A stretch of DNA of 64,000 nt from Methylopila sp. 73B (lineage in GTDB: Bacteria; Pseudomonadota; Alphaproteobacteria; Rhizobiales; Methylopilaceae), in NCBI RefSeq assembly GCF_000526315.1, contig NZ_JAFV01000001.1, positions 2,480,001-2,544,000 of the forward strand. The letters run 5' to 3'. The notes beneath the pieces were generated by a model. The model did not search any database. It worked only from the letters and a program-made list of their open reading frames with translations, and was not told the origin of the DNA. The position numbers and the translations under genes are program-made. Below, piece after piece: positions 17,922 through 31,975 of the stretch (its first letter is position 1; each line of letters starts with the position of its first letter).

Positions 17922-18656
17922 TCAGACGCTGAGGTGACGAAGGATGCGTTCGCGCGCGTCGGGGCCCGTCGCGCCCTCGTCGTCGATCTCGCCGAGCTTC
18001 AGCACCGCCCAGCGGTCGGCGACGCGCAGGGCGAAATCGAGGTTCTGCTCGACGATCAGCATCGTGGCGCCGCTCGCCGCCCGCTCGGCCGAAAGGGCGG
18101 CGGCGATGCGGTCGACGACCGAGGGCTGCAGGCCCTCCGAAATCTCGTCGATCAGCAGCAGCCTTGGCTTCAGCATCAGCGCGCGGGCGAGGATCAGCAT
18201 CTTCTGTTCGCCGCCCGAGAGCGTGCCCGCGCGTTGCGCGAGCCGGTCCTTCAGGAACGGGAAGTGGCCGAACACGCGCTCCAGCGCCGCGGGCAGCAGA
18301 CGGTCGCTCGCGACCGCGAGCCGCAGGTTGTCGCGGATCGAAAGATCCTGGAACAGCGGCTGCTCCTGCGGCGCGTAGCCGACGCCGAGCGCGACGAGCT
18401 TCGCGGGAGACAGCCCTGCGACCGAAACCCCGTCGACCGCGATCGCGCCGCCGCGCAGGCCGACCATGCCGAGGATGGTCTTGAGCAGGGTGGTCTTGCC
18501 CATGCCGTTCTTGCCGAGCAGCGCCACGATCTCGCCCGAGGCGACCGTGAGCGAGACGCCCTTCACGATCGAGACGGCGCCGTAGCCGCTCGTCACGCCA
18601 TCGAGCGCGAGCGCGCCGCCCGTCGCGTCCTCCGCCCGCCGCGCCGCGTCAGACAT
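17922..18656 (-). CDS. Branched-chain/urea-type ABC transporter ATP-binding protein (LivF-like)
   Basis: A 244-residue ATPase of the LivF/UrtE branch. Walker A is GKNGMGKTT, the signature is LSGGEQKMLILARALM, and Walker B is LLLIDEISEGLQP, with the E-S-E-G-L-Q form typical of LivF. It is the last gene of the amide operon and overlaps the fused permease-ATPase gene by eight bases. With that protein and LivH it should form a transporter for short amides or urea-like compounds. ATG 18656 (MSDAARRAED) was chosen because it gives the usual length and the overlap. Confidence 0.92.
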   Translation of the reverse strand: MSDAARRAEDATGGALALDGVTSGYGAVSIVKGVSLTVASGEIVALLGKNGMGKTTLLKTILGMVGLRGGAIAVDGVSVAGLSPAKLVALGVGYAPQEQPLFQDLSIRDNLRLAVASDRLLPAALERVFGHFPFLKDRLAQRAGTLSGGEQKMLILARALMLKPRLLLIDEISEGLQPSVVDRIAAALSAERAASGATMLIVEQNLDFALRVADRWAVLKLGEIDDEGATGPDARERILRHLSV

Positions 18657-20457
18657 GCGCCCCTCCCGAATAGATGGTCCGGACAAGCTCGGAATTGACG
18701 ACCTCGTCCACGGTCCCGTCGAGCACCAGCCGTCCCTGGTGCAGGACCACGATGCGCGAGGAGATCTGCCGCACGAAGTCGAGGTCGTGCTCCACCAGCA
18801 CCGCCGCGATGCCAAGCTCGGCGGTGAGGGTCTTCAGCACGGCGCCGATGGTCGTGCGTTCGGCTTTGGTGAGGCCCGCGGTCGGCTCGTCGAGCAGGAT
18901 CACCCGCGGCTCCAGCGCCACCACCATCGCGAGCTCGAGCGCCTGCTTCTGGCCATGCGAGAGCAGCCGCGTCGGCTCCGCCAACATGCGGTCGAGGCCG
19001 GTCATCCGGAGCACGTCGAGCGCGGCCTGCGGCAGGGTCAGGGTCTCGGCGCGGCCGAGGGCGCTCAACCCGTCGTGGGGCGCGCGGGCGAGCAGCAGGC
19101 AGTCCGCCACCGTCAAGCTTTCGAACACGCTCGCGACCTGGAACTTGCGGCCGACGCCGAGCGCCACGATGCGGTTGGGCGTCAGGCCGGCGGTCGAAGC
19201 GCCCGCGATCGAGACCGCGCCCTTGAAGGGCTCCGTGCCGTCGCTCAGGCAGCGCATCAGCGTGGTCTTTCCCGCGCCATTCGGGCCGACGAGGCTGACC
19301 AGTTCGCCGGCGCGGATCTCGAGGTCGATGTTCTCGAGCACGGTCAGGCTGCCGTAGGACTTGGCGAGGCCGTCGATCTTGAGCAGCGGCGCGTCGGACG
19401 CCTCCGCCTCCGCGCGCGGCGGGCTGGCGGCCAGCCGCGGGGCGAAGCCCGGCCGGCGTCCGACCGGCAGCGCGCCCCAGGCCCGGCGAGCGAGTTCCGC
19501 CAAGCCGCCCGGCAGCAGGATGATGACGGCGACGAAGGCCGTGCCGAGCAGCAGTTGCCACAGGAACGGCAGGTCGCCGGAAAGGTTCGCCGCAAGATAG
19601 TCAATCGCGATCGTGCCGAGGACCGGTCCGAGCAGCGTGCCGCGGCCGCCGAGCGCGACCCAGATCACGAGCTCGGTGCCGAACAGGAAGCCGGCGTTCT
19701 CCGGCGCGACCACCGACGAAGCGTTGGCGAAGACGAAGCCGGCGAGGCCCGCGACGCCCGCGAGCACGGTGGTGAGCGCGATCTGCAGCCGCTTGGGGCT
19801 GAGCCCCAGATAGGCGCAGCGCGCGTCGTTGTCGCGGACCGCGACCAGCGCGCGGCCGGCGTCGGAGCGCACGAACACCCAGGCCGCAAGCGTCACCGCG
19901 ATCAGCACCAACGCCGCCAGCCGGAAGAAGCCTTCGAGCTCGAGCGGCAGCACGTCGAAGCCGACGAGGCCGCTCGAGGAGCCGGTCCACTCGCCACCGG
20001 AATAGATCAGCTGCGTCACCACGATGGGCGTGACCAGCGAGATGACGGAGGCGTAGAGCGCGGTGGAGCGGTGGTAGAACGACAGCCAGCCGACCGCGAG
20101 GCCGAGCGCCATCGGCGCGACGACGGCGAGCGCGAGGGCGACAGCGATCCACGCCGGGGTCGCCCCGAGATAGGTCAGCGCCATCGCGGTCGCGTAGGCG
20201 CCCACCCCGAAGAACGCCGCCTGCCCGAAGGTGAGGATGCCGGCGAAGCCCCACAGCAGGTCCACCGTCACCGCGAGCACGGCGTAGATCATCGACCGGG
20301 TGAGGACGTTGACGGCGAAGGTGTCGAGAACGAGCGGGGCGATCCAAAGCGCGACGGCTGCGAGACCCGCGACCACGAAGGGCGCGGCCCGCGACAGCCG
20401 CGCGCGGCCCCGCTCGGGCCGCGCGGCGAGCCCGAGGGCGGAGACGTCGTCAGGCAC
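18649..20457 (-). CDS. Fused ABC permease and ATP-binding protein (LivM-LivG type)
   Basis: A 602-residue fusion. Residues 1 to about 330 form a LivM/UrtC permease (MIYAVLAVTVDLLWGFAGILTFGQAAFFGVGAYA is the family start). After an Ala/Pro/Arg-rich linker, residues from about 355 form a LivG/UrtD ATPase with Walker A GPNGAGKTT near 391, signature LSHGQKQALELAM and Walker B VILLDEPTAGLTK. In most bacteria these are two genes. The ATG overlaps the livH-type gene by eight bases. The fusion fixes a one-to-one ratio of this permease and ATPase; the second ATPase is the downstream LivF-like protein. Confidence 0.92.
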   Translation of the reverse strand: MPDDVSALGLAARPERGRARLSRAAPFVVAGLAAVALWIAPLVLDTFAVNVLTRSMIYAVLAVTVDLLWGFAGILTFGQAAFFGVGAYATAMALTYLGATPAWIAVALALAVVAPMALGLAVGWLSFYHRSTALYASVISLVTPIVVTQLIYSGGEWTGSSSGLVGFDVLPLELEGFFRLAALVLIAVTLAAWVFVRSDAGRALVAVRDNDARCAYLGLSPKRLQIALTTVLAGVAGLAGFVFANASSVVAPENAGFLFGTELVIWVALGGRGTLLGPVLGTIAIDYLAANLSGDLPFLWQLLLGTAFVAVIILLPGGLAELARRAWGALPVGRRPGFAPRLAASPPRAEAEASDAPLLKIDGLAKSYGSLTVLENIDLEIRAGELVSLVGPNGAGKTTLMRCLSDGTEPFKGAVSIAGASTAGLTPNRIVALGVGRKFQVASVFESLTVADCLLLARAPHDGLSALGRAETLTLPQAALDVLRMTGLDRMLAEPTRLLSHGQKQALELAMVVALEPRVILLDEPTAGLTKAERTTIGAVLKTLTAELGIAAVLVEHDLDFVRQISSRIVVLHQGRLVLDGTVDEVVNSELVRTIYSGGAHV

Positions 20458-21283
20458 GGGAGAAACCTTTCGGGCTGATGCGCAGCACGAGCGCCGCCAA
20501 CACGGCGATCGCGATGCTTCCCAGGATCGGGCTGACGAAGGTGCTGATCAGCACCTGCGCCGCGCCGAACACGAGGCAGGCGACGCCAAGCGCGAGGAAG
20601 GACGCGTCCGCCACCATCACCAGCATGAAGGCGCCGATCAGCCAGCTGACGCCCATGTTCGGATCGACGCTGGTGAGCGGGGTGAGCAGCACGCCCGCGA
20701 GCGAAGCGAGGCCGGCGCCGATCATGAAGGTGAAGAACCGCACGCGGGCGGTGTCGATGCCGAGGCCGCGCGCCAGGGTCTCGTTCATGATGACGGCGCG
20801 CGCCGACAGCCCGAGCCGCGTGCCCTCGATGGTGAGCGCGAAGGCGACGCCGATGACGACGGCCGCTCCGAGCGCCACCAGACGGTAGGCGGAGTAGTCC
20901 GCGCCGAAGACCTCGACGGTGCCGGAGAACAGGTTCGGGGTCATCTGCACGTCGCGGCCGAAGCCAAGCGTGATCAGCTGGCCGATGACGATGCCGAGCC
21001 CCCAGGTCGCGAGGATCGCGTCCAGCGGCCGGCGGTAGAGCGGTCGGATGATGAAGAGCTCGGCCAGCCCGCCGAGGGCGCCGCCGATCACGAAGGCGAG
21101 CGGCAGCGCGGCCCAGGGGTTAAGGCCGAGCTTGGCGGCGACCACGGCGCAATAGGCCCCGATGGTCAGCCAGGCCCCGTGGGCGAAGTTGATGATCTTC
21201 AGCACGCCGAACACCGCCAGCAGCCCGATCGAGACCACGAACAGGATGCCGGCGGTGGTCAGGACGTCGAGGATGAGCAGCAT
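20450..21283 (-). CDS. Branched-chain/urea-type ABC permease (LivH-like)
   Basis: A 277-residue integral membrane protein with about eight helices. LLAVFGVLKIINFAHGAWLTIGAYCA is the LivH/UrtB signature (INFAHG), and IRPLYRRPLDAILATWGLGIVIGQ follows. It pairs with the LivM part of the downstream fusion to make the channel. In the operon it lies 215 bases after the binding-protein gene, a gap that holds two GC-rich hairpins. Confidence 0.93.
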   Translation of the reverse strand: MLLILDVLTTAGILFVVSIGLLAVFGVLKIINFAHGAWLTIGAYCAVVAAKLGLNPWAALPLAFVIGGALGGLAELFIIRPLYRRPLDAILATWGLGIVIGQLITLGFGRDVQMTPNLFSGTVEVFGADYSAYRLVALGAAVVIGVAFALTIEGTRLGLSARAVIMNETLARGLGIDTARVRFFTFMIGAGLASLAGVLLTPLTSVDPNMGVSWLIGAFMLVMVADASFLALGVACLVFGAAQVLISTFVSPILGSIAIAVLAALVLRISPKGFSRA

Positions 21284-25851: not shown

Positions 25852-28800
25852 ATGAAACTCAGCATCGCGGCCGCCGCCGTCGCGGCGTTGACGGCGTGCG
25901 CCGCCGCGCCGGCGTTCGCGGCGGACGAAAACCTGTCCGGCGCATGGTCGGGCGTGATCACGCTCCCGCTGATCCCGTCCTCGGGCGCCGTGCTGCCGGA
26001 CGGAAAGACCCTGCTGTGGTCCGCGGACGACGAGTTCACCTTCGGCACGCTCGGCAAGGTCAAGGCGCTGCTGTTCGATCCGGCGACGCTGACCCATGTG
26101 CGGCAGGACGCCGAGGTCGGCCACAACATGTTCTGCACCGGCACCACCATGCTGGCCGACGGCCGCGTCCTCGCCAACGGCGGCTCGAACGCCGCGGTGA
26201 CCAGCATCTACGACCCGAAGACCAAGAGTTACGCGCGCGCGCAGGACATGAACATCCCGCGCGGCTACAGCGGCAACACGATCCTGGCGGACGGCTCGGT
26301 GCTGACGCTCGGCGGCTCATGGTCCGGCGAATGGGCGGACCGCAAGGACGGAGAGATCTGGACGCCGGACGCGGGCTGGCGCGTGCTTCCGGGCGTCGCC
26401 ACGAGCGGCATGACGACCCCGGACGAGACCTCCGGCTACGCTTACGACAGCCATTACTGGCTGATCCCCGCGGGCAACGGCAAGGTGCTGTTCGCCGGTC
26501 CTTCGCCGGCGATGAAGTGGATCGACTCGACGGGCGGGGGCTCGGTCAGCGAGGCTGGCCTGCGCGGGGACGACGCCTTCGCGATCAACGGCACCGCCTC
26601 GATGTACGACGCCGGCAAGGTGCTCAAGGCCGGCGGCTCGATCTCCTACAACGGTAACCCGGCGCGCGCGGGCGCCTACGTCATCGACGTTTCGAGCGGC
26701 GACGCGGCGGTGACCAAGGTCGCGCCGATGGCCTACGCCCGCACCTACCACAACGCGGTCGTGCTGCCCGACGGCGACGTGATGATGATCGGCGGCCAGA
26801 CCTACGGCCAGAGCTTTTCGGACTCGAACGCCGTTCTGGCGGCGGAGATCTGGAACTCCAAGACCGGCGTCTTCCGGATGGTCGCGGCCGCCGCGCGCCC
26901 CCGCAACTACCACAGCATCGCCCTGCTGCTGCCGGACGGGCGGGTGCTGTCTGGCGGCGGCGGCCTGTGCGGGTGCTCCGCGGATCATCCCGATGTCCAG
27001 ATCTACTCGCCCGGCTATCTCTTCGACGCGAACGGGGCGCTCGCCTCGCGCCCGAAGATCGTGTCGGCGCCGGACGAATTCCGCTTCGGCGCGGAAGCGG
27101 CCGTCGTCACCGACCGCGAGGTCGTCGCATTCTCGCTGGTGCGGATGTCGGCGGCGACGCATTCGGTCAACAACGACCAGCGCCGGCTGTCGCTCAGCTT
27201 CCGCCCGACCGGAACGAACGCCTACGCGCTGAGCGCGCCGTCCAATCCCGGCTATCTGCTGCCCGGCAACTGGATGCTGTTCGGCCTCGACGCGGCCGGC
27301 ACGCCGTCTGTCGCCAAGATCGTGCACGTCAGCCCGAACGCGGTGGCGTCGCTGGTGAGCCCCGGAACCATCGTCACGAGCCTCGGCGCGGGTCTGCTGG
27401 TGGAGCCGAACGTCGTTCCGCTGTCGCGAGAGACGATCTTCAGCGCGGTCGGCCTGCCCGCGGGAATGACGATCGACCGCACCACCGGCGCCATCTCCGG
27501 CGCGCCCTCCGTCGCCGGCACGTTCCAGGCGCAACTCATCGCCACCGCCGGCGGCCAGACGGTCTCGACCGACTTCAAGGTCGCGGTGGACGGCGCCCTC
27601 GCCGCCGGCGACGGGTTGCTCGGCGAGTACTACTCCTCCATGGACCTCACCGGGCCGATCGCCATGCTCCGCCGCGAGGCGCCCTATTTCTCGTTCCCGG
27701 AGACCGGGCCGGGCGGGAACGTGCCGGGCGCCTTCTCGGCGCGCTGGAGCGGCGAGATCACCGCGCAGCGCAGCGGCGTCACCCAGTTCCGGGTCGAATC
27801 CGACGACGGCGTGCGGCTGTGGATCGGCGGCAAGCAGATCGCGGACGACTGGGTCGCCCATGCGCCCGCCGTCAAGGAAGGCCAGCTCGATCTCGTCGCC
27901 GGGCAGAAGGTCCCGGTCTTCATGGAGTATTACAACAGCCTGTTCGGCGGCACGCTGCGCCTGAGCTGGCTCCGCCCCGGCGACGTCGACTTCATCCCGA
28001 TCCCCCTTTCGCAGCTCGGCGGTTCGTCCGCGCCGCTGTCGACGGCCAATCTCGCGCGCGGAAAGGTCGCGACCCAGTCGAGCGTGCAGAGCGGAGGAAC
28101 GCCCGACCGCGCCGTCGACGGGGTCGTCAACGGCCAATGGTCGGCAGGTTCGGTCACGTTGACTCCCACCCAGGCCAATCCCTGGTGGCAGGTGGACCTC
28201 GGCGGCCGCGCCGCGCTCGACTACGTCCGGCTGTGGAGGCGGACGGACTGCTGCGAAGCGCGCACGAAAAACCTCTATGTCTTCGTCTCGGTCGAGGATC
28301 CGACCGGCCGCAGCTTCGCGGAGCTGATGGCGGATCCGGCGGTCGTCAAGCGCTACGTCTCGGCGGACGTCACGATCACCAACTTCATCGACGTGCCGAT
28401 CGGCGCGATCGGCCGGTTCGTCCGGGTGCAGGGAGCGGCCGCCTCCGCGCTTCAGCTCGCGGAGGCGCAGGCGTTCGGCGTCTTCACCAACAAGCCGCCC
28501 ACGCTCACCGTTCCAGCCGCGCAATCGTCGCCGGCGGGCGCCGCGGCCGCGCTCGCCGTCAAGGCGACCGATCCGGAGGGCGACGCCATCACCTTCAGCG
28601 CGAGCGGCCTTCCCGACGGGCTGTCGATCAACGCCACGAGCGGGCGGATCTCCGGCACGCCGACCACGCCGGGGTCCTACGCCGTCGCCGTGACGGCCGC
28701 AGACGCGCTGGCGGCGACGGCGGGACAGTTTTCCTGGACCGTCACCGAGGCCACGCCCACCGTACGGTCTCTGCTCGTGAAGCCGACGGTGGTCAATCGG

Positions 28801-30897
28801 ACGGTCACCTACTCGCCCACCATCCTGAACGGCGAGGGAGTGACCTACCGCTGGAGCTTCGGCGACGGCACGGCGGACACCGCCTTTTCGACCAGCCCCG
28901 TCGCGACGCACGTCTTCAAGGCCGCCGGCAGCTTCGACGTCACCCTGACGATGCGGACGGCGAGCGGGCGGCAGACGACCTACGGCTTCGACCAGGCGAT
29001 TTACGTGAAGCCGGCCTCCGACGCGCGCGGCGCGACCAGCGGCGCGGCGGGCTACGAAGCGCGATCCGGAGCGTCGCCGCGGCTATGGATCGCGAACCCC
29101 GACAACGACAGCGTCGCCGTGCTCGACCTCGGAACCAACACGCGGGTCGCGGAGATTCCGGTCGGCGTCTCGCCCCAGAGCCTCGCGATCGCGCCGAACG
29201 GCGGAGTGTGGGTCGTCAACCGCGACAGCTCCACGGTCAGCGTCGTCGATCCGGCGTCGCTGACCGTAGTCCGCACCATCGCCCTCCCCGCGGCGTCCCG
29301 CCCGTTCGGCATCGCGTTCGTGAATGGAAACGGCGCCGCGGTGGTCACGCTCGAAGGGCTCGGCGAGGCGGCCATGATCTCCCCCGCCGGCGTCTACGGC
29401 GGATCCGTGCCTGTCGGGCCCTCGCCGCGGTTCATCGCCGCGAACCAGGCGCAGGACCGGGTCTTCATCTCCCGCTTCGTGACCGGCCCGCAGCCCGGCG
29501 AGGGCACGGCCGTCGTCAAAAGCGTGGACGCCGCCGGCCAGCCGACGGGCGGCGAGGTCCGCGTCATGAAGCTGGACGGCGTCGTCGAGAGAACGATCGT
29601 CCTTCGTCACTCGACCGCGCCGGACAGCGAGGCTGGCGGGCGCGGCGTGCCGAACTACGTCGGCGCCCTCGCCCTGTCGCCCGACGGCAAGACCGCCTGG
29701 GCGCCCTCCAAGCAGGACAACATCGCCCGGGGGACGCTGCGGGACGGCCAGAATCTGACCTTCCAGAACACGGTGCGCGCGATCGTCTCCAAGATCGACC
29801 TCGCCACCGGCCAGGAGGACCTGAGCGCGCGGATCGATCTCGACAATTCCGGCGTGGCCAGCGCCGCCGTGATGCATCCGACGGGCGCCTATCTCTTCGT
29901 CGCGTTGCAGACAACGCGCCAAGTGGCGGTCGTGGACCCGGTCGGGCGGCGCGAGCTGTTCCGTTTCAAAGTGGGTCGCGCGCCGTCGTCGCTCACCCTG
30001 TCGCCGGACGGAGACACGCTCTACGTCGGCAACTTCATGGACCGCACGGTGACGGTCGCCTCGCTGGCCTATGTGCTGCGCTACGGCCAGATGAAGGAGC
30101 GCATTCTCGCGACCATCCCGACGGTCGCGCAGGACAAGCTGTCGCCGACCGTGCTGAAGGGGAAGCAGTTCTTCTACGACGCCGCGGACCTCCGGCTCGC
30201 CCGCGACGGCTATCTCAGCTGCGCCGCCTGCCACGACCGCGGCGAGGACGACGGCCGCACCTGGGACTTCACCGGCTTCGGCGAAGGCCTGCGGAACACC
30301 ATCTCGCTCGTGGGCCGCGCCGGTCTCGGCAACGGCTTCATGCACTGGAGCGCGAATTTCAACGAAGTGCAGGACTTCGAAGGCCAGATTCGCAGCTTCG
30401 CCGGAGGCCGCGGCCTGATGTCGGACGCGGCCTTTGCGCTCGGCACCCGGTCCGACCCGCTGGGGAAGGCCAAGGCGCGCGCGAGCGCCGACCTCGACGC
30501 GCTCGCCGCCTTCGTGCAATCGCTCGACGCGTTCCCGCCGAGCCCCTACGCCAAGGCCGACGGAGCGCTGACCCCGGCGGGCGTGACCGGCAAGGCGGCC
30601 TTCGACCGCCTGCGCTGCGGCTCCTGCCACGCCGGCGACGCGATGACGATCAGCGGCAACGCGCGCCGGATGAAAGACGTCGGCACCATCAAGCCCTCGT
30701 CCGGCAGCCGCCTCGGCGGGCCGCTCCCCGGCATCGACGTGCCGACGCTGCGCGGGGTCTGGGCCACGGCGCCCTATCTCCATGACGGTTCGGCCGCGAC
30801 CCTCGCCGATGCGGTGAAGGCCCACACGAACGTCACGGCGTCCGCCGCGGACCTCAGCGCCCTCGCCGACTACCTCAAGCAGATCGGCCCGCCATGA
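25852..30897 (+). CDS. Giant exported copper radical oxidase (galactose-oxidase-like) fused to a di-heme cytochrome domain
   Basis: A 1681-residue secreted protein. The signal peptide (1-23) also contains a possible lipobox, LTAC at 13-16. Residues 40-500 are a galactose-oxidase/glyoxal-oxidase kelch propeller with early-set domain. Every copper-site residue aligns with fungal galactose oxidase: Cys95 (NMFCTG) and Tyr139 (RGYSG) for the thioether cofactor, Trp157 (GGSWSG), Tyr353-His354 (RNYHS) and His437 (ATHSVNNDQRR). Then come an Ig-like segment, PA14 (586-722), an F5/8 discoidin domain (734-877), a putative-Ig domain (880-966), PKD (973-1053), a YVTN propeller (1077-1410) and a di-heme c-type domain with CAACH at 1457-1461 and CGSCH at 1589-1593. 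That domain ends TLRGVWATAPYLHDGSAATL, as in cytochrome c peroxidase/MauG relatives. Expected: alcohol or glycan oxidation yielding H2O2. Cytochrome and Sco genes follow, overlapped. Confidence 0.92.
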   Translation: MKLSIAAAAVAALTACAAAPAFAADENLSGAWSGVITLPLIPSSGAVLPDGKTLLWSADDEFTFGTLGKVKALLFDPATLTHVRQDAEVGHNMFCTGTTMLADGRVLANGGSNAAVTSIYDPKTKSYARAQDMNIPRGYSGNTILADGSVLTLGGSWSGEWADRKDGEIWTPDAGWRVLPGVATSGMTTPDETSGYAYDSHYWLIPAGNGKVLFAGPSPAMKWIDSTGGGSVSEAGLRGDDAFAINGTASMYDAGKVLKAGGSISYNGNPARAGAYVIDVSSGDAAVTKVAPMAYARTYHNAVVLPDGDVMMIGGQTYGQSFSDSNAVLAAEIWNSKTGVFRMVAAAARPRNYHSIALLLPDGRVLSGGGGLCGCSADHPDVQIYSPGYLFDANGALASRPKIVSAPDEFRFGAEAAVVTDREVVAFSLVRMSAATHSVNNDQRRLSLSFRPTGTNAYALSAPSNPGYLLPGNWMLFGLDAAGTPSVAKIVHVSPNAVASLVSPGTIVTSLGAGLLVEPNVVPLSRETIFSAVGLPAGMTIDRTTGAISGAPSVAGTFQAQLIATAGGQTVSTDFKVAVDGALAAGDGLLGEYYSSMDLTGPIAMLRREAPYFSFPETGPGGNVPGAFSARWSGEITAQRSGVTQFRVESDDGVRLWIGGKQIADDWVAHAPAVKEGQLDLVAGQKVPVFMEYYNSLFGGTLRLSWLRPGDVDFIPIPLSQLGGSSAPLSTANLARGKVATQSSVQSGGTPDRAVDGVVNGQWSAGSVTLTPTQANPWWQVDLGGRAALDYVRLWRRTDCCEARTKNLYVFVSVEDPTGRSFAELMADPAVVKRYVSADVTITNFIDVPIGAIGRFVRVQGAAASALQLAEAQAFGVFTNKPPTLTVPAAQSSPAGAAAALAVKATDPEGDAITFSASGLPDGLSINATSGRISGTPTTPGSYAVAVTAADALAATAGQFSWTVTEATPTVRSLLVKPTVVNRTVTYSPTILNGEGVTYRWSFGDGTADTAFSTSPVATHVFKAAGSFDVTLTMRTASGRQTTYGFDQAIYVKPASDARGATSGAAGYEARSGASPRLWIANPDNDSVAVLDLGTNTRVAEIPVGVSPQSLAIAPNGGVWVVNRDSSTVSVVDPASLTVVRTIALPAASRPFGIAFVNGNGAAVVTLEGLGEAAMISPAGVYGGSVPVGPSPRFIAANQAQDRVFISRFVTGPQPGEGTAVVKSVDAAGQPTGGEVRVMKLDGVVERTIVLRHSTAPDSEAGGRGVPNYVGALALSPDGKTAWAPSKQDNIARGTLRDGQNLTFQNTVRAIVSKIDLATGQEDLSARIDLDNSGVASAAVMHPTGAYLFVALQTTRQVAVVDPVGRRELFRFKVGRAPSSLTLSPDGDTLYVGNFMDRTVTVASLAYVLRYGQMKERILATIPTVAQDKLSPTVLKGKQFFYDAADLRLARDGYLSCAACHDRGEDDGRTWDFTGFGEGLRNTISLVGRAGLGNGFMHWSANFNEVQDFEGQIRSFAGGRGLMSDAAFALGTRSDPLGKAKARASADLDALAAFVQSLDAFPPSPYAKADGALTPAGVTGKAAFDRLRCGSCHAGDAMTISGNARRMKDVGTIKPSSGSRLGGPLPGIDVPTLRGVWATAPYLHDGSAATLADAVKAHTNVTASAADLSALADYLKQIGPP

Positions 30898-31322
30898 GAT
30901 GGCGGCCGCGAGGCGCCGCGGCGACGGCGGCGCTGGCGCTCGGAGGCGTCGGCGCCGCCTCGGCTGCGGCGTTCCTGCCGGACGTTCGAGGCTATGCGCT
31001 GTACCACGGCTACGCCGGACTGCAGGCCTCCGTCGCGGCCACCGAGGTGCCGCTGCCGACATCCGCCTCGCGCTGCGCGAACTGCCATGACGCCCGGCCC
31101 TCGGCTGCGCCGCGGCGGGTCGTCGCCCTCGACCGGGCGAGCCTGACACAGGCCACCCCCCGGCGCGGCGGCCCCGCCTCGGTCTATGACGCGGCGGCGT
31201 TCTGCACGGCCTTGCGGGACGGGCTCGACCCGTCCTCGGTCCTCCTCGACCGGACGATGCCGCGCTTCGTGCTCCCGGACGACGACTGCCAAGCGCTGTG
31301 GCGCTATGTGAGCGGCCGGTGA
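30894..31322 (+). CDS. Small exported c-type cytochrome
   Basis: A 142-residue protein with signal peptide to about residue 25 (GAASA), one heme site CANCH at residues 61-65, and a probable Met ligand in RTMPRFVLPDDDCQALWRYV, the typical class I ending. Its ATG overlaps the stop of the giant oxidase gene (ATGA), so the two are coupled. Probable role: electron acceptor or donor for the di-heme domain of that protein. Two further cysteines, in FCTAL and DDDC, could form a disulfide. Confidence 0.85.
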   Translation: MRWRPRGAAATAALALGGVGAASAAAFLPDVRGYALYHGYAGLQASVAATEVPLPTSASRCANCHDARPSAAPRRVVALDRASLTQATPRRGGPASVYDAAAFCTALRDGLDPSSVLLDRTMPRFVLPDDDCQALWRYVSGR

Positions 31323-31975
31323 GCGGCCGGCGCGCTGCCCTCGTAGGGGCGCTCCTCGGGTGCGCGCTCACGGCCGTCGGCGTCGGCGCGGGCCTTTTCC
31401 TGTCCGCGCGGAGCGGCGCGCCGCCGACGCTCCCCGCCGTCGTCTCCGCGCCGCAGGAGACGCACCTGCCGTTCGGACCGATCCGGCCGCCGCGCGCCAT
31501 GCCGGCGGTCGCGTTAACCGGCGACGACGGCGTGGCCACGACGCTCGCCGCGCTCACGCACGGCCGCTACACGCTGCTGCAACTGATGTTCACCGGATGC
31601 TCGGTCACCTGCCCGATCCAGGGCGCGATCTTCAAGGCTGTCCAGGCGGCGCTGGCGGCGGAAGGCGTCGAGGCGCAGTTGCTTTCGGTCAGCATCGACG
31701 CCGTGGGCGACACGCCGGACGCGCTGGCGCGCTGGCTGAGCGGCTTCGACGCCCGAACGGGCTGGCGCGCCGTGGTCCCCTCCCCTGAAGGCGTCGGACC
31801 GCTCGTCGACGCGCTCAACGGCCGCGGCTCCGGCCCGGACGTGCACGACGCCCGGGTCTATCTCCTAGCGCCCTCGGGCAAGCTGATCTTCGTCACCGAA
31901 GAGATGCCGAGCCCACGCTACCTCGTGAAGCTGCTGCGCGACGCCGCCGCCTTCGAGGCGCGTGCGCCACGTTAG
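31319..31975 (+). CDS. Sco1/SenC-type copper chaperone
   Basis: A 218-residue membrane-anchored thioredoxin-fold protein. The N-terminal helix ALVGALLGCALTAVGVGAGLFLS anchors it. The copper site is Cys94-x3-Cys98 (FTGCSVTCPIQ) with His176 (DVHDARVYLL), the three Sco ligands. Start GTG 31319 overlaps the cytochrome stop as GTGA. Sco proteins usually load CuA of cytochrome oxidase, but in Streptomyces a Sco protein supplies the galactose-oxidase-like GlxA. Here the operon position points to the upstream copper radical oxidase as client. Confidence 0.9.
   Translation: MSGRRAALVGALLGCALTAVGVGAGLFLSARSGAPPTLPAVVSAPQETHLPFGPIRPPRAMPAVALTGDDGVATTLAALTHGRYTLLQLMFTGCSVTCPIQGAIFKAVQAALAAEGVEAQLLSVSIDAVGDTPDALARWLSGFDARTGWRAVVPSPEGVGPLVDALNGRGSGPDVHDARVYLLAPSGKLIFVTEEMPSPRYLVKLLRDAAAFEARAPR

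Follow-up and report, generated by a model that had tools for sequence, protein, structure and literature searches.

A predicted copper-radical oxidase fused to a di-heme domain and encoded with a small cytochrome c and a Sco protein in Methylopila

The DNA analysed here is a 64,000-nucleotide stretch of a Methylopila genome (strain 73B, contig NZ_JAFV01000001.1; hereafter the window). It carries an isolated unit of three overlapping genes on the plus strand, which encode a large fusion protein, a small cytochrome c and a Sco copper chaperone (Table 1). Judged by its signature residues, the fusion protein appears to be an exported copper-radical alcohol oxidase of Auxiliary Activity family 5 (AA5) in the CAZy classification, and not a true galactose oxidase; its C-terminal end is a di-heme domain. 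The architecture is rare but recurrent, and among close relatives its two catalytic ends are equally constrained, and harder than its middle. The tethered heme domain may activate the oxidase, consume the peroxide that it makes, or both, with Sco supplying copper. An earlier note on this DNA had described the 1681-residue fusion and two overlapping downstream genes, and translation of the open reading frames (ORFs) bears out its coordinates and lengths.

The copper-radical oxidase domain and its relatives

The fusion protein matches GO-like_E_set and Kelch_6 above the Pfam cut-offs, which gives its N-terminal domain the kelch-type propeller fold and C-terminal E-set of AA5 enzymes. All six residues that the earlier note had named as a complete galactose-oxidase active site (C95, Y139, W157, Y353, H354 and H437) align with galactose oxidase; their counterparts in the Fusarium enzyme are presumably C228, Y272, W290, Y495, H496 and H581. 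The copper-site Cys, both Tyr and both His are kept in 13 of 13 aligned rows, fused and unfused, and also in the fusion at locus L135. The substrate pocket is another matter, as positions Q326, R330 and Q406 are Thr, Ala and Asn in the window protein. The W290/R330 pair has been described as a key indicator of galactose oxidase activity (PMC11267884). By this pair the window protein falls outside the galactose 6-oxidases (AA5_2), having the Trp together with Ala for R330 and Asn for Q406. Because the marker Arg is Ala here and is kept in only one of the seven fused rows of the Sco-linked clade described below, galactose is a doubtful substrate, and the substrate is probably not galactose. The NCBIfam equivalog model for GlxA (NF052501) scores 149 bits against a cut-off of 800.

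A tree was built from 49 oxidase rows, leaving out L023 (which starts inside the oxidase), the split L070, matches of fewer than 380 positions of the hidden Markov model (HMM), and L135, which was found later. In this tree the Sco-linked oxidases form one clade of 19 rows (support 100/99), of which seven are fused, 11 are unfused with Sco and one (L061) is neither. A Sco gene adjoins 18 of these 19 rows versus none of the 30 others; a marginal hit at L068 (3.1e-5) did not pass. Outside the clade, on starred branches, stand the unfused L111, then the fused L022 and L053, then L025, the placement of L025 and L111 being unsure because both are flagged as long. Fused and Sco-only rows are separable by one change (support 79/36; 78% of bootstrap trees, with 28 ungrouped rows not counted). 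An old fusion whose heme end was later lost in some branches would be the simplest reading of this tree, and it is not proven.

Two loci, from Methylopila sp. Yamaguchi (L019) and M. capsulata (L020), match residues 1-1680 of the fusion with 86% identity in the best segment and keep the same three genes intact, so that the three-gene unit of the earlier note is well supported. Genome counts that follow include the window's own genome or the genome on which a sample was centred. Within the family, the oxidase (E <= 1e-20) occurs in 8 of 18 genomes, three times in frames longer than 1600 residues (G000, G013, G007) and once split (G009). The order sample holds it in 16 of 297 genomes, with four such frames (G000, G013, G007, G495), the phylum sample in 6 of 398 at E <= 1e-30, with two (G000, G087), and the order of G661 in 12 of 300 at E <= 1e-60, also with two (G661, G682). 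Searched with a profile of the propeller and heme domain, the class of G495 gave one matching genome out of 337, that of G087 two out of 185, and the phylum of G663 two out of 159. Among plasmids, 60 records match, and one of them covers at least 80% of the query. A pattern-based scan of 84,980 species genomes, which detects close relatives only, returned seven loci, and no further copy was found at E <= 1e-90 among 249 other genomes related to G682. The window's own genome gave no PF03150 match at E <= 0.001, a weak negative since the same search also misses the fusion itself.

Other genomes of the window's genus carry, at L055, L056 and L071, tandem unfused galactose-oxidase-like pairs followed by Sco, and the second copy in L056 and L071 is without the substrate Arg. 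In G009 (L070:7468-9320) several frames divide up the fusion's oxidase part, with the heme end, cytochrome and Sco open; this could be sequencing error or decay.

The di-heme domain and the linked genes

The C-terminal domain shows the features of the CcP/MauG superfamily (CcP, cytochrome c peroxidase), namely two CxxCH motifs and a conserved Trp. Trp1499 has an aligned counterpart in the di-heme peroxidase 1iqc, a Trp that we take to be the inter-heme one. D1508 and E1510 are invariant in all 14 aligned di-heme domains; the row that deviates at Trp1499 and His1658 is L024. The best solved sequence match is the gamma subunit of hydrazine synthase (5c2v_C, 2.3e-14), and CcPs come next. Against PF03150 (CCP_MauG) the window protein scores 24.9 bits, just under the cut-off of 25.6. 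Four fused relatives (L021, L022, L026, L109) pass it with 29.4-38.1 bits, and scores across L021, L022, L024, L026, L109, L135 and L136 run from 26.7 to 38.1. The domain lies far below the equivalog cut-offs both for MauG (TIGR03791; 24.9 bits vs 443.85) and for hydrazine synthase gamma (NF052341; 54.7 vs 625), and residues 1631-1656 match the RoxA-like Cyt-c family of Pfam at 34.4 bits (cut-off 26.7).

In canonical bacterial CcPs heme 2 is six-coordinate with Met and His (PMC6405878). Here His1658 stands at the Met position, and heme 2 looks bis-His. At the place of His144 in hydrazine synthase gamma, CcP and MauG carry a Trp that is important for catalysis (PMC12758564); from this contrast and the alignments of Trp1499 and His1658, the domain appears to combine a CcP/MauG-like Trp with a heme 2 like that of hydrazine synthase. 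The heme ligands are read from sequence because AlphaFold2 (AF2) did not fold this domain. The label 'CcP/MauG-like' in the earlier note thus holds for the superfamily and lacks precision beyond it. The same di-heme domain occurs with PKD domains in very large proteins of a metagenome-assembled Verrucomicrobia genome (L024:6486-11537) and of another member of that phylum (L136:6024-11597), which have Big_5 and Laminin_G and give no oxidase hit.

To see how the parts are constrained, we compared ratios of nonsynonymous to synonymous substitution (Ka/Ks), obtained pairwise with a simple estimator. Against L019 these were 0.10 for the oxidase, 0.26 for the middle domains, 0.16 for the YVTN propeller, 0.11 for the di-heme domain, 0.32 for the cytochrome and 0.25 for Sco. 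Against L020 they were 0.15, 0.31, 0.19, 0.10, 0.23 and 0.22 in the same order.

HMMs for the four components (oxidase, heme domain, cytochrome, Sco) were run over 53 loci. Forty-eight hold the oxidase, 12 of them as fusions and 36 unfused, and L135 was added later as a thirteenth fusion locus. Cytochrome and Sco genes both lie beside 8 of the 13 (8 of 12 in the HMM scan), all those in Alphaproteobacteria (the window, L019, L020, L070, L052) or in or near Burkholderiales (L021, L026 and L109, the last from the order of the L021 genome). Unfused loci have Sco beside 8 of 36 (L054-L060 and L071, with Sco on the opposite strand at L060) and the cytochrome beside 0 of 36, a count in which absence is half tested at L111, L112, L119 and L120, where one side of the oxidase has less than 1 kb. 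The cytochrome is therefore present at 8 of 8 loci with Sco and the heme domain and at 0 of 8 with Sco but no heme domain. A BLAST search with the window Sco, which had placed Sco beside only two unfused oxidase loci, was dropped once the HMM scans raised that count to eight; an ORF taken for Sco at L050 lay in the wrong reading frame and was left out of the Sco HMM. Gene order varies: L021 has cytochrome, gap, Sco and fusion, and L026, a Comamonadaceae plasmid (CP099607), is annotated in the order discoidin-domain protein, hypothetical protein, SCO family protein. On that plasmid (L026:1-20521) the triad is surrounded by genes of aromatic catabolism (gallate dioxygenase, pcaGH, CoA transferases), which may hint at an aryl alcohol as substrate.

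The small cytochrome stays under the Pfam cut-offs in the window and has CANCH and a Met. Its CxxCH and Met-Pro pair are invariant in 7 of 7 rows, and the relative at L109 passes PF00034 (24.6 vs 21.3 bits). A cytochrome profile run on whole genomes gave strong matches (E <= 1.4e-60) in 6 of the 31 searched, and all six hold the fusion. Weak matches (E 1.5e-13 to 8.6e-4) arose in G012, in G167 and twice more in G661; these four are domains of larger proteins, and three adjoin a Sco gene. Those other Sco genes lie beside larger cytochrome-domain proteins at L082:8485-10801, L083:4703-7071 and L084:5868-9419, with no oxidase hit in the stretch. The window Sco belongs to the Sco/SenC family by PF02630 (cut-off 22.8 bits) and by its aligned CxxxC and distal His; the genome has three Sco matches.

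Possible roles for the tethered heme domain

Anatomy, conserved residues, gene linkage and, among close relatives, selection at both ends were computed; the chemistry and the course of the electrons in the following scheme, to which we give about an even chance, are inferred throughout. Sco would load copper into the oxidase domain, after which the Cys95-Tyr139 cofactor could form. The oxidase would convert a primary alcohol to an aldehyde and O2 to H2O2, and the H2O2 would react with the di-heme domain at heme 1. That domain might then withdraw a single electron from the copper site in its resting Cu(II)-tyrosine state, which would return the site to the active Cu(II)-radical form; alternatively, electrons from the small cytochrome c could pass through heme 2 and the inter-heme Trp, so that peroxide is removed. 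The PA14, F5/8, Ig (immunoglobulin-like) and YVTN modules would tether both ends and probably serve to attach the protein to a surface or glycan.

Several precedents point this way. The resting form of copper-radical oxidases is an inactive Cu(II)-nonradical state that one-electron oxidation activates, and these enzymes are described as needing activation by horseradish peroxidase to reach maximum activity in vitro (PMC9770985). The Colletotrichum oxidase is activated, as electron paramagnetic resonance supports, by a peroxidase secreted as its partner, which does this better than horseradish peroxidase despite a moderate peroxidase efficiency (PMC9770985). When copper is scarce, GlxA of Streptomyces depends for its maturation on Sco as well as on the heme peroxidase DtpA (PMC4736821). 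This, together with Sco beside 8 of 12 fusion versus 8 of 36 unfused loci, makes the Streptomyces parallel drawn in the earlier note a well supported one. The bis-His heme of hydrazine synthase gamma has been proposed to accept electrons from cytochrome c (PMC12607021). Given the Colletotrichum and Streptomyces precedents, a peroxidase-type domain in the same chain and a Sco neighbour, a tethered activator and peroxide sink is the reading that we favour. The pocket Arg and Gln vary among the fused enzymes while the heme motifs are constant, which fits a substrate-independent role for the heme domain; the same variation disfavours a heme domain dedicated to one substrate. The further suggestion in the earlier note, that the system cross-links or trims glycans, gets no support here. 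Its interpretation stands in part, for the three-gene unit and the likeness to GlxA, Sco and DtpA.

Certain observations weigh against the activator and peroxide-sink reading. Five fusion loci show neither Sco nor cytochrome within the sequence at hand (L022, L053, L135, L023 and L025), although L023 offers 239 bases after the gene and none before, and the L025 contig ends after the propeller with the heme end unseen. Fusions lacking both genes have another residue or a gap at the Trp157 position, where it can be read. The co-occurrence counts are not independent, because the fusion loci are few and related and the tree allows one origin. Against the distant L052, Ka/Ks is about 0.5 at both ends (oxidase 0.51, di-heme 0.47; middle domains 0.66, YVTN 0.49, cytochrome 0.66), a distance at which the estimator is poor and the signal much less clear. 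The AF2 model, from a 7-row alignment, has a predicted local distance difference test (pLDDT) score of about 30 over the heme domain and is of no use there. Peroxidase activity is not assured, as a His takes the place of the aligned Met at heme 2 and NO reduction has been proposed for hydrazine synthase gamma. Finally, this type of cytochrome might serve Sco instead, since its weak relatives adjoin other Sco genes without an oxidase (L082-L084).

In a tentative extension, on balance doubtful, the enzyme would be self-maturing: the di-heme domain, working in cis and driven by the oxidase's own H2O2, would mature and re-activate the Cys-Tyr cofactor, with Sco and the cytochrome as dedicated helpers and a second MauG/MbnH-like enzyme helping beside some fusions that are without them. 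The fusions of L053 (3185 residues) and L135 (2486 residues), both from one class other than the window's, are each adjoined by a separate di-heme gene (L053, 11011-12462; L135, 14755-15987). Both neighbours match PF03150 with E-values no higher than 4.4e-41; the MauG and MbnH models match them too (6.3e-36 or lower), with scores under the equivalog cut-offs. A MauG-type gene beside a fusion that has neither Sco nor cytochrome is what a role in maturation or activation would predict, and two loci are few; the flanks of L022 (7.8 and 3.6 kb) hold no MauG/MbnH-like gene. At L135 a YtkA-domain gene overlaps the MauG-like gene.

The enzyme might instead be a copper-radical dehydrogenase, whose di-heme domain accepts electrons from the reduced copper site and hands them through the small cytochrome c to the respiratory chain, O2 not being the main oxidant. 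A fused heme domain with a dedicated exported cytochrome c recalls dehydrogenases with attached cytochrome domains, and heme 2, with its bis-His pattern, resembles an electron-transfer heme. We nevertheless think this unlikely: the active-site residues are those of galactose oxidases, which use O2, and the fusions of L022, L053 and L135 have no cytochrome in the stretch seen. Moreover, a pure relay would not need the conserved Trp and acid pair at the Trp and Glu positions of CcP, where the Glu has a role.

It is less probable still that two independent enzymes share one surface scaffold, with the fusion serving co-localisation only and the di-heme domain acting on NO, hydroxylamine, an aromatic compound or a second protein. 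This alternative draws on the best solved match, hydrazine synthase gamma, being a proposed NO reducer (PMC12758564), and on the L024 and L136 proteins, in which the heme domain occurs without an oxidase hit. It has to contend with the recurrence of the fusion in Alphaproteobacteria, Burkholderiales and other Proteobacteria, always with the oxidase N-terminal to the propeller and di-heme domain, and with the CcP/MauG Trp, kept here where hydrazine synthase gamma has His144.

We give little credence to a cytochrome that works as redox partner to Sco and adjusts the redox state of the copper or the disulfide while copper is loaded, with the heme domain acting alone. Fusions without Sco are also without the cytochrome (L022, L053, L135), and the weak cytochrome relatives are domains of other proteins beside other Sco genes, as this would have it, but eight unfused oxidase loci have Sco and no cytochrome. 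That Sco serves cytochrome oxidase or general copper supply and adjoins the fusion by chance is very improbable: three Sco matches in the genome would permit a sharing of roles and the L060 gene lies on the opposite strand to the oxidase, but Sco adjoins 18 of 19 rows of one oxidase clade and none of 30 others, and the Sco and cytochrome genes of the window have 25 bp in common.

The locus, related systems and significance

Table 1. Features of the three-gene unit, in positions of the window.
Feature	Position	Strand	Evidence
Fusion gene; exported galactose-oxidase-fold / Ig / PA14 / F5-8C / PKD / YVTN / di-heme protein	25852..30897	+	ATG 25852, stop at 30897, 1681 aa; ORF, Pfam, NCBIfam, full-length relatives
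Predicted Sec signal peptide, residues 1-23	25852..25920	+	Read from translation
Copper-radical oxidase domain (kelch propeller and GO-like E-set), residues 25-494	25924..27333	+	
Cys95, expected thioether partner	26134..26136	+	Alignment; C in 48/49 oxidase domains
Tyr139, expected radical Tyr	26266..26268	+	Alignment; Y in 49/49
Trp157, stacking Trp	26320..26322	+	Alignment; W in 19/19 Sco-linked clade rows, 0/30 other rows
Tyr353-His354, axial Tyr and Cu ligand	26908..26913	+	Alignment; 49/49
His437, Cu ligand	27160..27162	+	Alignment; 49/49
PA14 domain, residues 588-710	27613..27981	+	Pfam, 66.3 bits
F5/8 type C domain, residues 740-863	28069..28440	+	Pfam, 47.9 bits
He_PIG Ig-like domain, residues 882-965	28495..28746	+	Pfam; one of two reported stretches
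PKD domain, residues 980-1041	28789..28974	+	Pfam
YVTN-type propeller, residues about 1065-1400	29044..30051	+	TIGR02276, AF2, Foldseek
Di-heme domain, residues 1434-1660	30151..30831	+	Sequence matches, alignments
Heme 1 motif CAACH, residues 1457-1461	30220..30234	+	C, C, H in 14/14 rows
His1498-Trp1499	30343..30348	+	Trp aligns with Trp of di-heme peroxidase 1iqc; H 14/14, W 13/14
Heme 2 motif CGSCH, residues 1589-1593	30616..30630	+	C, C, H in 14/14 rows
His1658, candidate sixth ligand of heme 2	30823..30825	+	Aligns with Met of CcPs 3o5c and 1iqc; His 13/14
Small mono-heme cytochrome c (CANCH, MPRF), exported or anchored	30894..31322	+	ORF, alignment, family matches
Sco copper chaperone (CSVTC, distal His)	31298..31975	+	PF02630 42.1 bits, alignment

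The coding sequences of the fusion and the cytochrome share 4 bp (ATGA), and those of the cytochrome and Sco 25 bp. The N terminus of the fusion has a lipobox-like LTAC, and similar N termini occur in L021, L025, L026 and L109. On the 5' side, on the opposite strand, are genes for a carbon-nitrogen hydrolase, an AmiR-type regulator and two binding proteins; on the 3' side a TetR regulator (opposite strand) is followed by RND (resistance-nodulation-division) efflux genes. A pattern scan returned no promoter-like site and one terminator-like site on the opposite strand, both within chance. Elsewhere in the window a 607-residue open frame (18655-20475, plus strand), with no Pfam match at E <= 0.001, is overlapped by a 602-residue frame on the opposite strand and may be spurious.

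Between the two ends lie the PA14, F5/8 and PKD domains of the earlier note, above the Pfam cut-offs, and its YVTN repeats, which reach 70.5 bits with TIGR02276 of NCBIfam (cut-off 27.85). Its list had omitted the He_PIG Ig domains and the RoxA-like Cyt-c stretch, both above the Pfam cut-off. The AF2 model is mostly confident over the propeller, and because of the heme end's low score Foldseek speaks for the propeller only. By E-value the first match is 1l0q, a surface-layer protein with YVTN and PKD, and the second is hydrazine synthase beta (5c2v_B; template-modelling score normalised to the target 0.74, 3.5 A), which some unrelated propellers equal or exceed in that score.

Each part of the protein is known elsewhere, and the logic of an oxidase with Sco and a heme peroxidase is known from Streptomyces. 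Fungal AA5_2 galactose and alcohol oxidases and the galactose oxidase of Pseudoarthrobacter siccitolerans (9g43; 45% identity over 463 aligned residues) share the fold and all six active-site residues. Unlike them, the window oxidase starts right after the signal peptide, has Thr, Ala and Asn for Q326, R330 and Q406, and is fused to a di-heme domain. In Streptomyces, too, one pathway combines a copper-radical oxidase (GlxA) with Sco and a heme peroxidase, DtpA (PMC4736821), but DtpA is a separate DyP (dye-decolorising) peroxidase, whereas the c-type di-heme domain is here in the same chain, and the oxidases are 25% identical. The tandem peroxidase and alcohol oxidase of Colletotrichum and Magnaporthe also pair an oxidase genetically with an activating heme peroxidase, but through two head-to-head fungal genes and a class II peroxidase, and the available part of the source mentions no Sco or cytochrome (PMC9770985).

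Hydrazine synthase beta/gamma (5c2v B/C) shares the YVTN propeller and di-heme domain, but the window protein is far below the NCBIfam cut-offs (80.6 bits vs 1250) and has Trp in the region of gamma His144. Bacterial CcP, MauG and MbnH (PF03150) share two CxxCH, the Trp and a PYLHDGS motif; the window protein differs in its His for the aligned CcP Met and in falling just below the family cut-off. RoxA-type rubber oxygenases share the RoxA-like Cyt-c stretch, which spans 26 residues only, with NCBIfam RoxB/RoxC far below cut-off. Mazurkewich, in 2023, reportedly described a bacterial AA5 oxidase fused with an inactive CE3 (carbohydrate esterase 3) domain, likewise a multidomain fusion, but with a partner that is not a redox domain. 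Among the best-ranked titles and abstract openings from literature searches, none describes the single-chain architecture, a hydrazine-synthase-like heme module on a copper-radical oxidase or the three-gene unit; the earlier note likewise knew of no described system with this architecture.

Copper-radical oxidases are catalysts in use, and their activation in bacteria is known only in part, from GlxA. The module of YVTN propeller and di-heme domain that resembles hydrazine synthase beta/gamma is now extended to a copper enzyme. With oxidase and heme domain recurrently paired in a single chain, the physiological standing of heme-driven activation can be tested directly, and the pairing might supply a self-activating oxidase.

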